DNA of 64,000 nucleotides from Enterococcus haemoperoxidus ATCC BAA-382. Lineage in GTDB: Bacteria; Bacillota; Bacilli; Lactobacillales; Enterococcaceae. How positions within the stretch are numbered: position 1 is the stretch's first letter; each line of letters opens with the position of its first letter. The notes beneath the pieces are model-generated. The model searched no databases and had not been told where the DNA came from. It saw nothing but the letters and a program-made list of their open reading frames with translations. Of this stretch, positions 26,046-57,700 are shown one piece after another. Position numbers and translations under genes: made by a program. Where the stretch lies: contig NZ_KE136479.1 in the NCBI RefSeq assembly GCF_000407165.1, positions 1,809,464-1,873,463 of the forward strand, read 5' to 3'.

Positions 26046-27962
26046 TTAATTATTATCCTCTATCATTTCTTTCTCTTGTCTTTTCTGCATTTCTTTTCTT
26101 AAATTCTTATGGGCTTTTTTAGAGCCTCTTTCAAGATCTCGTTGTCTCTTGCGTTCATGATAATTGTCAAACAAGGAATCTAAATCATAATTTTTTGGAT
26201 ACAAGTCTTTTGCGCGCCGCTCTAATTTTAATTGGCGCTTATGAACGGTTATTTTTTCGTTTTCAAAGTAGATTACGACATCATCTGTCATTTCTATCAA
26301 CTCATATATTAAAGCAATTTTCTTTTTCTCCGTCCAAAAAACTCGATCTCCTTTTTCATAGGCTGGAAAAATCGTTTGCTCTTTTTGTTTTTTGACTTTT
26401 TGAAAAGATCCTTCTTTTTTCGTTGAATAGTTGCGATCATGTAAATAGTTTTGGGCAAGTTTAACAACTTGTTCATCTAGATTCATCTTGTTAGCGATCC
26501 AAAAAGCGTTACTTTCACCTGTTTTTCCTAAAACCAATTGATATTTAGGCATTAAGTTCTCTGAATCAAACGCCATCGCAGCAGTTAGAAAATCTTCATG
26601 TTGCTCGGAAAAACGTTTGATTTCTCCATAGTGGGTTGTCGTTATAAGAATACTACCCTTTTTGTAAAAAGCTTCCATGATCGCAATCGCTAATGCTGCA
26701 CCTTCATTAGGTTCGGTTCCACTACCGATTTCATCGAGCAAAATCAAGCTATTTTGTTTTGTTTTAGCAAGAATTTCGGAGATGTTATGCATGTGTCCTG
26801 AGAAAGTACTTAAAGCATTCTCAATACTTTGCTGATCCCCGATATCAACGAAAATCTGATCAAAAATAGCGATGTTCGTACCGGCATCTGCCATAATTTG
26901 GACACCAATCATCGTTTGCAAACAAATCAAGCCCACTGTTTTTAACACAACCGTTTTCCCACCCGCATTAGGTCCGGTAATCGTCAGGCCGCGGTATTCC
27001 TTTCCTAGCGACAGATTCAAGGGAACTGCCTTATCAGCTAATAAAGTATGTTTCACGTTAACAAATTCAATGATTCCTTCTTGATTGATTGCAGGTTCGA
27101 TTCCGTTGATTTCTCTACTGTATTTCGCTTTAGCAAAGATCATGTCATATTGTGCAACTACTTCTAAATTTGATTGGATCGAGATCATTTGCTCTGCAAT
27201 CAACCCCGTCAGTGAAGATAGAATTTGATAAACTTCTGTCGCTTCCTCCATTTTCAGCTGATATAATTTATCATTTAGTTTCGCGACTGTTGTCGGCTCA
27301 ACAAAAACAGTCGTTCCCTTCGAAGAAGCATCTATGACGGTTCCTGAGATTTGGTTTTTATATGTTGCTTTGATCGGTATGGTGTAACGGTCGTTTTTCT
27401 TAACAACAATTGATTCTTGAATTTTCGGTTTATTTTGCACGTTTCGAAGAAATGAATGTAATTTCAGTTCAATTTCTTTTTCACACTCTTGAATAGCACG
27501 ACGGATTTTACGAAGTTCACGACTCGCATCATTCTCCACTTGATTGTTTCGAATGACTTGATAGATTTCATCTTCAATATCAGAAAAGAGCAGCAATGAT
27601 TCACTGTATCTAGCTAAAAGTGGCGCGATAAATTGATTTTTTTGCATAAAGGATTGGATCAAACGACTACTTCTAAGAAAATCTGCATAGCCGACTAATT
27701 CATTTGGCTCTAAAATAAACCCTTTTTCAACTTGATTTGTTAAATGTTCAATATTGTTTAATCCCATAAATGGAACATGTAGATTTGCTAGTAGCAAGGC
27801 TTTTGCTTCTGCTGTTTCTTGTAGACGCTTTTTAACCACGTCTAAGCGACTACTTGGCTGTAAACGTTTGATTTGCTCTTTTCCGTAGTAACTGATCGCG
27901 TAAGTCATTAGTTTTTCTTTGATCATATTAAATTGTGTTTTATCATAGGTTTCTTGATTCAT
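26046..27962 (-). CDS. MutS2-like ATPase without Smr domain
   Basis: A 638-residue MutS-family protein. It begins with the core/lever helices (residues 1-280) carrying YTIPIKATYKNQISGTVID. The ATPase follows: Walker A GPNAGGKT near residue 330, Walker B LILLDEIGSGTEPNEGAAL near 408, and a TTHYGEIKRF motif. The C terminus is a lysine-rich coiled tail; the Smr nuclease domain and full length (about 780 residues) of canonical MutS2 are missing. MutS2 of Bacillus acts on recombination and on collided ribosomes; this shorter paralogue has no assigned function. The ATG at 27962 follows GGAG; an upstream open frame of 40 codons runs through the leader hairpins and is rejected. Confidence 0.88.
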   Translation of the reverse strand: MNQETYDKTQFNMIKEKLMTYAISYYGKEQIKRLQPSSRLDVVKKRLQETAEAKALLLANLHVPFMGLNNIEHLTNQVEKGFILEPNELVGYADFLRSSRLIQSFMQKNQFIAPLLARYSESLLLFSDIEDEIYQVIRNNQVENDASRELRKIRRAIQECEKEIELKLHSFLRNVQNKPKIQESIVVKKNDRYTIPIKATYKNQISGTVIDASSKGTTVFVEPTTVAKLNDKLYQLKMEEATEVYQILSSLTGLIAEQMISIQSNLEVVAQYDMIFAKAKYSREINGIEPAINQEGIIEFVNVKHTLLADKAVPLNLSLGKEYRGLTITGPNAGGKTVVLKTVGLICLQTMIGVQIMADAGTNIAIFDQIFVDIGDQQSIENALSTFSGHMHNISEILAKTKQNSLILLDEIGSGTEPNEGAALAIAIMEAFYKKGSILITTTHYGEIKRFSEQHEDFLTAAMAFDSENLMPKYQLVLGKTGESNAFWIANKMNLDEQVVKLAQNYLHDRNYSTKKEGSFQKVKKQKEQTIFPAYEKGDRVFWTEKKKIALIYELIEMTDDVVIYFENEKITVHKRQLKLERRAKDLYPKNYDLDSLFDNYHERKRQRDLERGSKKAHKNLRKEMQKRQEKEMIEDNN

Positions 27963-27963
27963 T

Positions 27964-27991
27964 GGTATCTCCTTTTCTTTTAAGAGATACC
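27964..27991 (-). promoter_or_regulatory. Ribosome-binding-site-sequestering hairpin
   Basis: The minus strand carries GGTATCTC and GAGATACC, perfect 8-base arms around a 12-base loop. The second arm includes the GGAGA Shine-Dalgarno sequence of the MutS2-like gene. GATAGGTATC at its 5' side can instead pair with GATACCTATC about 150 nt upstream in the same leader (at 28141-28150), which would free the site. Confidence 0.6.
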
Positions 27992-28054
27992 TATCTTCTT
28001 TTGAATAGACCAAAGAAATTCCTTCTAGCTGCGTATAGATTGGGAAAACAAAAA

Positions 28055-28079
28055 AGGGACGAAGTGTCCCTTCATCCCT
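28055..28079 (-). terminator. Attenuator terminator inside the MutS2-like gene leader
   Basis: Minus-strand arms AGGGATGAAG / CTTCGTCCCT with a five-base loop, followed by TTTTTTGTTTT. It lies between the promoter at 28281-28309 and the start codon, 93 bases before the gene, so transcription must read through it. Confidence 0.8.
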
Positions 28080-28280
28080 CACTAATTAATAAATAAAGAT
28101 AGATATACAGCAGTCTATCAGGTATTTTTTTATGAGTTAAGATAGGTATCAACATAGGTATGCTAAAGAAGCCATCAAAAAATGGTTATTTATTCTTCAG
28201 CTATTCATTTCCTTTAGTTAGATACTTACACTCACAAAAACACCTCTATGGCTTTCTTTGGCTATTCATTTCTCGCTAAA

Positions 28281-28309
28281 AGTATAACCTGTTTTTTTTA
28301 TAACGTCAA
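28281..28309 (-). promoter_or_regulatory. Promoter of the MutS2-like gene
   Basis: Minus-strand TTGACG (28304-28309) and TATACT (28281-28286), exact 17-base spacer. It defines a leader of about 310 nt before the coding region. Confidence 0.75.
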
Positions 28310-28344: not shown

Positions 28345-29784
28345 TTAAGAGGATTGAACCATCTTTTGATATAGTTCCATGTATAATCGACTTGATTTTT
28401 CCCAACTAAAATCTTTTCTCATCGCTTTTTTCATCAATTGAGTCCATGTGTTCTGATCATTCCAATACAGATCAATCGCCATGTTTGTGCTATACAACAA
28501 GTAATAGGAACTAAAATCAGAAAAGCCAAAGCCTGTTCCTGTCTTTGTTACTGGATCAAAGGATATTACAGTATCTTTCAAGCCGCCAACTTCATGGATG
28601 ATCGGCAAGGTCCCGTAACGCATTGCAATCATTTGTGACAATCCGCATGGTTCTGTAGCAGATGGCATCATGAATAGATCAGAACCAGCATAAATCAGTT
28701 GCGCCAAGTCAACATCAAACGTAATTTTCGCTTTAAATTTAGTTGGATAATGCTCTGAAAAAGAGTTGAACGAATTTTCAATTCCAGGATCGCCAGTTCC
28801 AAGTAGTACCAGTTGAACATCTTTTTCCAAAAGTTTCGCTAAATCATCTAAAATCAGATGAAAACCTTTTTGAAACGTTAAACGACTGACGATCCCGATC
28901 AGCGGAACATCGGCCCGAATAGGCAAAGCCATTTTTGTTTGCAACGCTTCTTTATTTTTCTTTTTCCCTACTAGATTGTGTATCGAAAAATTTTCAGGAA
29001 TTGATTTATCTGTCTCTGGATCATTCATCTCATAATCGATCCCATTTAAAATACCGCTTAACTTCTCTTGTTCTAATCGTAAAACGCCATCTAGACCAAA
29101 ACCAAATTCAGGTGTTTTTATTTCTTCTGCATAAGATGGGCTCACTGTATTCACTTGATCTGCATATAAAATCCCCGTCTTCAAGTAATTGACGCCATCC
29201 CCAAAACGGGCAGCTCCATCATAATAACGATCGAATTCCATTCCGAAAAAGTCTGCCAATAAATCCTGACTATAGGATCCTTGAAATTCAATATTATGAA
29301 TCGTCAACACCGTCTTGATTGAACGGTATGCTTCGATCCATTGATATTTCTCTTTTAATAAAAAAGGAATCATCGCTGTGTGGAAATCATTAACATGGAT
29401 AACATCAGGTAGTAAATCGATTTTCTCCAACATCTCAATGATAGCTAAAGAGAAGAAGGCAAAACGTTCTCCGTCATCATCATACCCATAAAGGTTTTCA
29501 CGATCAAAATAATACGAATTCTCAATAAAATAATAGGCCACATCGTTCATAACTAAACGCTTAACACCACAATATTGATGCCGCCAGCCAACATCAACAT
29601 AAAAATTAATTAGCTCTTCACATTGTTCTTTAAAGCGTTCAGGCATCTTAGTAAAATAAGGCAAAACAACAGAAAGTTTTGCCCCTTTTTTAACTAATTC
29701 TTTGGGCAATGCACCTGCTACATCTCCTAAACCACCAGTTTTAAAAAATGGTGCGCATTCAGCGGCTGCATATAATACCTTCAT
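28345..29784 (-). CDS. glgA: Glycogen synthase (ADP-glucose)
   Basis: GT5 glycosyltransferase that extends alpha-1,4-glucan from ADP-glucose. It has the N-terminal KTGGLGDVAGALP motif, HVNDFHTA near residue 120, the FQKGFHLI region near 305, and the C-terminal PSATEPCGLSQMIAMRYGTL block that binds the sugar nucleotide. It is 479 residues, normal for the family. The ATG at 29784 overlaps the TGA of glgD, with GGGGG 9 bases upstream. It is the last gene of glgB-glgC-glgD-glgA; no glycogen phosphorylase gene follows. Confidence 0.95.
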   Translation of the reverse strand: MKVLYAAAECAPFFKTGGLGDVAGALPKELVKKGAKLSVVLPYFTKMPERFKEQCEELINFYVDVGWRHQYCGVKRLVMNDVAYYFIENSYYFDRENLYGYDDDGERFAFFSLAIIEMLEKIDLLPDVIHVNDFHTAMIPFLLKEKYQWIEAYRSIKTVLTIHNIEFQGSYSQDLLADFFGMEFDRYYDGAARFGDGVNYLKTGILYADQVNTVSPSYAEEIKTPEFGFGLDGVLRLEQEKLSGILNGIDYEMNDPETDKSIPENFSIHNLVGKKKNKEALQTKMALPIRADVPLIGIVSRLTFQKGFHLILDDLAKLLEKDVQLVLLGTGDPGIENSFNSFSEHYPTKFKAKITFDVDLAQLIYAGSDLFMMPSATEPCGLSQMIAMRYGTLPIIHEVGGLKDTVISFDPVTKTGTGFGFSDFSSYYLLYSTNMAIDLYWNDQNTWTQLMKKAMRKDFSWEKSSRLYMELYQKMVQSS

Positions 29785-57167: not shown

Positions 57168-57315
57168 CTACGATATAACTCTATCATTACTTTCATATTT
57201 AACGCTCAATACTCCTATACTATAACAGAAATAAGTTTTTTTTGACAATTAATCTTCATTTCTTAACAAATTTTTATTTTTCAAAGAGATATCACTAGCC
57301 AAATGGTCCTAAATA

Positions 57316-57324
57316 TGCTATATT
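57316..57324 (+). promoter_or_regulatory. Extended -10 promoter of the cold-shock gene
   Basis: TGCTATATT (extended -10) with TAGCCA 17 bases upstream of TATATT as a weak -35. It implies a 5' untranslated region of about 110 nt, the length usual for cspA-type thermosensing leaders. Confidence 0.55.
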
Positions 57325-57440
57325 AAGAGTGTAGTTTTTGTTCGGTAATATATGTGTAGCTGTTTCAAATAAACATCTTCCACATTTTCACCTTTCAAGT
57401 AATTGCAAAATATGTGTATATCACAAGGAGGATTTTTATT

Positions 57441-57641
57441 ATGGAAACAGGTACAGTAAAATGGTTTAACTCAGACAAAGGTTTTGGATTTATCACTGCA
57501 GAAAACGGTAACGATGTATTCGTACATTTCTCAGCTATCCAAGGCGACGGATTCAAAACTTTAGAAGAAGGTCAAGCAGTGACTTTCGACGTTGAAGAAG
57601 GCCAACGTGGTCCTCAAGCTACTAACGTTAACAAAGCATAA
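57441..57641 (+). CDS. Cold-shock protein (CspA family)
   Basis: A 66-residue single-stranded nucleic-acid-binding OB-fold protein. RNP1 is KGFGFI at residues 13-18 and RNP2 is VFVHF at 25-29; the C terminus is [11 protein letters not shown]. It acts as an RNA chaperone in the cytoplasm. The ATG follows AAGGAGG by 9 bases; a longer frame from 57414 runs through the leader and is rejected. It has a long leader and a strong terminator. Confidence 0.96.
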
Positions 57642-57665
57642 TTAACTTAACATTAGTAAATCCAA

Positions 57666-57689
57666 ACCCTGACGATTAGTCGTCAGGGT
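57666..57689 (+). terminator. Terminator after the cold-shock gene
   Basis: Perfect arms ACCCTGACG / CGTCAGGGT followed by TTTTTAT. Confidence 0.9.
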
Positions 57690-57700
57690 TTTTTATAACA

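Follow-up and report, generated by a model that had tools for sequence, protein, structure and literature searches.

What controls the MutS2-like gene that lies beyond glgA in Enterococcus haemoperoxidus ATCC BAA-382? In the window analysed here (64,000 nucleotides of assembly GCF_000407165.1, contig NZ_KE136479.1, positions 1,809,464 to 1,873,463), the minus strand carries a leader between glgA (same strand; open reading frame (ORF) end at 28345) and the MutS2-like gene at 27962-26046. An earlier note, made from the sequence alone, had described a promoter, a terminator, a hairpin hiding the Shine-Dalgarno (SD) sequence of the gene and a 10-nt complement able to open that hairpin, and all of these were found on the minus strand. 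Its main omission was a very short upstream ORF (uORF), which makes the leader a candidate ribosome-sensing attenuator; it also missed the same leader ahead of other genes. We propose that the leader is probably an attenuator worked by ribosome stalling, similar in kind to those of vmlR and hflXr. The gene behind it encodes a MutS2 paralogue without an Smr domain.

The uORF was spotted when the upstream regions of orthologues from 41 related genomes were compared side by side. A short paralogue, recognized by length, occurs in 29 of these genomes (two are split between frames), and the uORF is present ahead of 27 of the 29 in this protein-led set. Its peptide is MSVSI in most near kin of the window; MSVSV, MSVLGI, MSVVGI, MSVSGI, MSVASI, MSGVCI and MSVVIS were also seen. 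By sequence, the leader therefore has a conserved uORF with an SD sequence upstream of the gene, as erm/vmlR-type attenuators do. The order along the leader is the uORF with segment 1, hairpin P2, segment 2, the terminator, segment 3, segment 4 and the gene (Table 1). Segment 3 has an alternative partner in segment 4, via GGTATCTC (27991-27984): the SD-hiding hairpin GGTATCTC/GAGATACC, which joins 27991-27984 with 27971-27964, is part of the minimum-energy fold, and the folding of the whole leader beats 100 of 100 dinucleotide shuffles (z -4.96).

The uORF, the terminator, the alternative pairings and their conservation are read from sequence; in the scheme that we infer from them, transcription would begin past the promoter and a ribosome would translate MSVSI*. 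If that ribosome finished and left, segment 1 would pair with segment 2, the terminator would end most transcripts, and in any that escaped it the SD sequence in segment 4 would be hidden by segment 3. A ribosome stalled on the uORF would instead cover segment 1 and leave segment 2 free to pair with segment 3, releasing the SD sequence so that the Smr-less MutS2 could be made. In addition, a stalled ribosome would be expected to promote passage through the terminator. The protein would probably split stalled ribosomes, as MutS2 of Bacillus subtilis does, and so confer tolerance to a ribosome inhibitor.

To examine the pairings, we aligned 26 leaders (alignment A1), from which the covariance model R1 was built. 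RNAalifold predicted P2 but not the helix between segments 1 and 2 (helix 1:2) on A1, where the letters of this helix hardly vary; it was entered by hand in R1 and judged on a wider alignment, A3, which was fitted to the model and has 98 rows (97 of them distinct). Nine of 109 loci, which have no MutS2-like gene, were set aside, leaving 100 leaders, and 98 of these entered the pairing test, since segment 2 was not located in L070 and L090. Locus L123 was dropped as probably false, as it has no short uORF and lies inside an open frame, and ten antisense matches were removed by a stricter threshold and a shorter source list (98 sources). On A3, 12 of the 15 pairs of helix 1:2 and P2 showed double changes, and 93.1% of cells could pair, compared with 83.5% after shuffling and 21.7-53.2% when slid. 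The pairing of segments 2 and 3 beat shuffles (p<=0.05) in 83/98 leaders and, counted by genus (91 leaders), in 23 of 29 genera. The 72 distinct 2:3 duplexes (best per leader) carry three or four Watson-Crick types at each of segment 2 positions 7-10. A terminator was found in 90/100 related leaders against 5.1% of 1000 shuffles, with stems that differ between clades, and in at least half of the leaders for 28 of 29 genera. A promoter matching at least 9/12 consensus positions precedes 74/100 related leaders, its end lying at a median of 44 nt upstream of the uORF. These data bear out a two-layer leader, with a terminator and a hidden SD sequence, whose alternative pairings are conserved and covary in relatives. 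A further upstream pairing, which the earlier note had cast as a competitor, fared otherwise: its letters are present, and the pairing is not kept in relatives, the GCCAT half occurring in only 11 of the 26 A1 rows, all in the window's genus (counted by eye).

Equilibrium folding was then computed for 92 leaders (L070, L090 and long leaders left out) with a ribosome footprint over the uORF kept unpaired. Masking the uORF raised the probability of the 2:3 pairing from 0.12 to 0.58, with a rise above 0.1 in 72/92 leaders. Access to the SD sequence rose from 0.415 to 0.516 (43 leaders up and 2 down by more than 0.05), while a control mask gave 0.413. For the leader set, mutually exclusive pairings thus link the uORF to SD access.

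Table 1. Positions of the leader features and of the gene in the window.
Feature	Position	Strand	Details
Promoter TTGACG-17-TATACT	28281..28309	-	10/12 consensus
uORF Shine-Dalgarno GAGGTG	28241..28246	-	Five Ts, then start codon; conserved in A1
uORF GTG AGT GTA AGT ATC TAA (MSVSI*)	28218..28235	-	Five codons; relative ahead of most short paralogues
Segment 1 GTATC, uORF 3' end	28221..28225	-	Pairs with segment 2; fold and helix 1 of A3
Hairpin P2, interval between segments 1 and 2	28162..28201	-	RNAalifold on A1; double changes in 8/8 pairs on A3
Segment 2 GATACCTATC	28141..28150	-	Alignment and pairing tests
Intrinsic terminator	28045..28079	-	Stem 28079-28055, T tract to 28045
Segment 3 GATAGGTATC	27986..27995	-	Perfect 10-nt complement of segment 2
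Segment 4 GGAGATACC, holds the gene's Shine-Dalgarno	27964..27972	-	Fold
MutS2 paralogue without Smr domain (P0001)	26046..27962	-	638 aa; TIGR01069 556 bits (cut-off 400); MutS_V

Also found on the minus strand were a hairpin GCTGAAGAA...TTCTTTAGC within 28201-28162 and GCCAAAGAAAGCCAT at 28262-28248. By number, promoter-like sites of this kind occur at chance level (4 found vs 3.4 expected), and 2 terminator-like sites were found vs 0.6 expected. Elsewhere in the window, 57307-57694 on the plus strand matches the Rfam cspA thermoregulator (95.7 bits vs a threshold of 78).

The leader forms a family. R1 matched 84/395 genomes of the order and 9/299 genomes of the class, 6 of them outside the order. 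A second model, R2, built from 98 leaders found with R1, matched 89/395 genomes of the order and 3/398 of the phylum; therefore, the leader is mainly an element of the one order. In 84 of 94 loci examined, a MutS2-like gene was the next long ORF, and in L064 it lay further along. A DNA pattern search returned 35 stretches in named genomes, all 35 of them with an ORF resembling P0001 behind them; its enterococci include E. ureasiticus, caccae, moraviensis, durans, villorum, thailandicus and pallens, and its other hosts are Alkalibacterium, Marinilactibacillus, Pediococcus acidilactici and Ohessyouella blattaphilus (Clostridia). Against plasmids, tblastn with P0001 gave 76 records, each below 60% identity, and the L073 leader, the sole leader searched there as DNA, gave one record, CP069368.1. 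This record (L177), labelled a Klebsiella plasmid, holds an Enterococcus-like leader at 74% identity; contamination is suspected, without proof. In L027, a run of near-repeats around CTTAGAGGTGCAGTACAAGG between terminator and gene lengthens the leader, and in L016 (genome G009) and L019 (G010) an intact leader precedes a short MutS2 gene that is broken across two frames.

Among 62 distinct uORFs, 47 have six codons, with Ser2 in 47/47, Val3 in 41/47, Gly5 in 29/47 and Ile6 in 35/47; all four valine codons are used at codon 3 and 15 residues occur at codon 4. The Ser2 codon is AGT throughout, a constancy that cannot test Ser2 in the R1 and R2 sets because the models and the search pattern contain AGTG. 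A second survey, again led by the protein and covering 220 genomes of the class, yielded 21 closer short paralogues (L179-L199; six of the genomes were already R1 matches), 20 with the RGSKK tail. An SD-preceded uORF beginning M-S lies ahead of all 21, against 13.4% of 2700 shuffled regions. Its serine codon is TCT in L185 (MSEVGMS) and TCC in L186 (MSVVGIN); ten genomes of one genus have MSEVVSA, and L180 has MSV* only. A Paenibacillus plasmid gene (L176) follows MSVNVLN with serine TCG, and an Acetoanaerobium gene follows MSVIVLL. By these codons, the M-S start appears to be kept across serine codon families. It is not universal, since a distant clade has M-L-G. In L166, L167, L169 and L170, an ATG AGT GAA frame (MSELFE...) overlaps a TTG-started M-S uORF in another frame.

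The paralogue itself was compared with housekeeping MutS2. Its closest paralogues, 92% identical, are in genomes G002 and G007. MutS_V was matched by all 17 aligned short orthologues and Smr and MSSS by none, while the same genome's other MutS2 has both Smr and MSSS; of the marks of a housekeeping MutS2, the paralogue thus has the MutS2-type ATPase and lacks the Smr domain. All 17 orthologues share invariant Walker motifs and, towards the C-terminus, the equally invariant pattern LYP..YD...LF.....RK...D..RG.KKA. A structure model of P0001 (mean predicted local distance difference test score 84.7) matches ribosome-bound MutS2 (7qv3), and a structure search ranks MutS and Msh proteins under MutS2 chains, residues beyond 480 being barely covered. 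The KOW/SH3-like region gave no MSSS match in the 17 orthologues, yet the model has five strands at 540-582. In passages of PMC10897456, B. subtilis MutS2 splits stalled ribosomes, its loss sensitizes cells to chloramphenicol, tetracycline and erythromycin, and erythromycin tolerance depends most on the ATPase, Smr and KOW mutants being only modestly sensitive. A paralogue whose motor is retained and whose collision sensor is gone would fit work on drug-stalled ribosomes. According to passages of PMC3410868, a mutS2 of E. faecium falls in an asrR mutant.

At ten places, a gene other than MutS2-like stands behind the leader, and three of the proteins were scanned. L086 combines an RsgA GTPase and an RNHCP domain; L111 is a transporter of the MFS type, with Mef(A) as its best named relative (257 bits vs a cut-off of 675); L113 is a BpsA_C-AdoMet decarboxylase fusion of the BpsA-SpeD type. 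Similarity by eye groups L115 with L111, and L116, L120, L121 and L122 with L113, which BLAST also joins with L165; L172, named by eye, is perhaps an acetyltransferase, the least sure assignment. Seven of the ten uORFs start with TTG or GTG, for example MSVIISN, MSSVTVSI and MSSVVVSI (by eye). Genome G391 has three leader matches, ahead of a MutS2-like (L084), a Mef-like (L115) and an acetyltransferase-like gene (L172). These other genes work on the ribosome or look like drug pumps, which was counted in favour of the attenuator. A wider proposal, on which we are evenly divided, is that Met-Ser-Val opening a uORF of 3-8 codons is a specific stall signal at the peptide level, the hallmark of a ribosome-stress regulon under leader control in the Bacilli and in part of the Clostridia. 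At its core would stand a dedicated Smr-less MutS2, splitting drug-stalled ribosomes with no need of a collision, alongside the RsgA-RNHCP GTPase, Mef-like pumps, the BpsA-SpeD polyamine enzyme and the acetyltransferase.

The inducer is probably an antibiotic. For chloramphenicol and linezolid, passages of PMC8987054 give Ala as the penultimate residue with which ribosomes stall best, ahead of Ser and Thr. Val3 in the P site would make Ser2 penultimate, a weak lead towards a phenicol or oxazolidinone; Ser is the weaker residue for such stalling in that account, and other drugs may be the inducer.

Several observations weigh against this reading. A3 was fitted to the model and the leaders are related, which means that the counts are not independent. 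Helix 1:2 beat shuffles (p<=0.05) in only 50/98 leaders. With the uORF masked, the terminator stem hardly lost strength (0.935 before, 0.886 after; a drop above 0.1 in 11/83 leaders), and the window's own leader reached a 2:3 probability of only 0.04 under the standard mask; a wider mask was needed for 0.67, with the SD sequence still closed. Serine was partly forced by AGTG in the R1 and R2 sets, and the search pattern of the 21-paralogue survey forces it too. Two leaders of family f9 (L028 and L029) carry a different short ORF, ATG ATG CTA ATT GTA TTT TAG (MMLIVF*, by eye), and six more distant short paralogues (L200-L205, 6/6) have M-x-x-x-V-L-N* instead. Finally, passages of PMC10897456 report that Smr deletion strongly cuts MutS2-ribosome binding, for which reason the Smr-less copy may work otherwise.

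The ORF of L028 and L029 is followed by a hairpin and perhaps belongs to an independent leader. M-x-x-x-V-L-N*, seen also in Cytobacillus, ends in a sequence that pairs over 9-12 bases with a downstream GTTAAGAAC (L200-L205 and Cytobacillus), and L175, L176 and L200-L205 form a second leader type, with this peptide and a GTTCTTAAC/GTTAAGAAC helix ahead of more distant short MutS2 genes. Since the pairing sequence there is wholly different and the layout is kept, the layout outlives the RNA sequence. As a route to antitermination, pairing of segment 2 with the 5' arm of the terminator was tried and rejected, being above chance in only 22/89 leaders; the folding data do not explain antitermination.

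Could the uORF instead sense a general slowing of translation (uncharged Ser, Val or Ile tRNA, collisions, slow termination) rather than a drug, with the MutS2 paralogue as a general rescue factor? The targets include a ribosome-maturation GTPase and polyamine enzymes, not pump-like genes alone, and Ile6, where present in the six-codon uORFs, stands directly before the stop. However, the uORF offers a single codon each of Ser, Val and Ile with no run of one amino acid, the codons past Val3 vary and are absent altogether from L180, and no amino-acid biosynthesis gene follows the leader in the loci examined; we consider this explanation unlikely. It is much less probable still that there is no switch and the terminator closes the glg operon among passive hairpins: glgA does end just upstream on the same strand, and equilibrium folding of the window's leader hardly switches, but a promoter belonging to the leader itself precedes the terminator, and many genera share one arrangement (promoter, uORF, segment 2, terminator, segment 3) ahead of MutS2-like and other genes. 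Least credible is a metabolite- or ion-binding riboswitch, which would share the alternative pairings, terminator and hidden SD sequence and might suit the polyamine enzymes, but no Rfam family reached threshold in the leader (best permissive E-value 1.3, far under the gathering score), the best-conserved stretch is the uORF, which explains the sensing and whose codon choices vary like coding sequence, and the distant clade keeps the layout with other pairing letters. The earlier note had left the choice between a riboswitch and an antibiotic-responsive attenuator; the former finds no support, and the latter probably holds in the form of a uORF-based attenuator. Its statement that the leader is not a T-box agrees with the Rfam result, and the link that it drew to translation stress is plausible.

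Through the stalling attenuator, a widespread group of genes emerges as candidates for intrinsic tolerance; no description of such a class was found in the literature searched. A search for MutS2 together with uORF and ribosome in the open-licence PMC literature, preprints excluded, found no report, which leaves absence from print unproven, and the uORF peptide strings returned nothing relevant there. As one leader precedes several genes, unknown genes behind it can be proposed as ribosome-protection genes by association, and a tripeptide that persists whichever serine codon family encodes it could prove to be a new context for stalling. If the scheme is true, HflX and MutS2, unrelated housekeeping factors that both split ribosomes, have each been copied behind a stall-sensing uORF; if the regulon is real, HflXr would be joined by a second family of ribosome splitters that can be induced.

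The nearest known counterpart is hflXr/rli80 of Listeria monocytogenes, where a copy of a ribosome splitter beside the housekeeping one likewise lies behind a uORF and a terminator, and lincomycin and erythromycin induce it (passages of PMC6310831). There, the splitter is an HflX GTPase, the uORF has 14 aa with an RLR motif, and the same passages describe transcription attenuation only, whereas here we find a MutS2-type ATPase, an MSVSI uORF and an additional hidden SD sequence; the system resembles HflXr in layout and is not an HflXr. The B. subtilis vmlR leader has the same order, with a short uORF in an anti-antiterminator hairpin, a terminator and an SD-hiding hairpin, and combines transcription and translation attenuation; it differs in its uORF (MIN), its ABC-F target and its RNA sequence (sections of PMC9226507). 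The cplR and lsaA leaders similarly place tiny conserved uORFs (MR[I/M], MAGN) ahead of resistance ATPases that act on the ribosome, with other peptides and RNA and with ABC-F targets (parts of PMC10201436). Compared with B. subtilis MutS2, as portrayed in PMC10897456 in part, the paralogue has no Smr domain or MSSS match and has its own conserved tail. The leader would thus be an attenuator of a known kind, new in its peptide, its RNA and its target.
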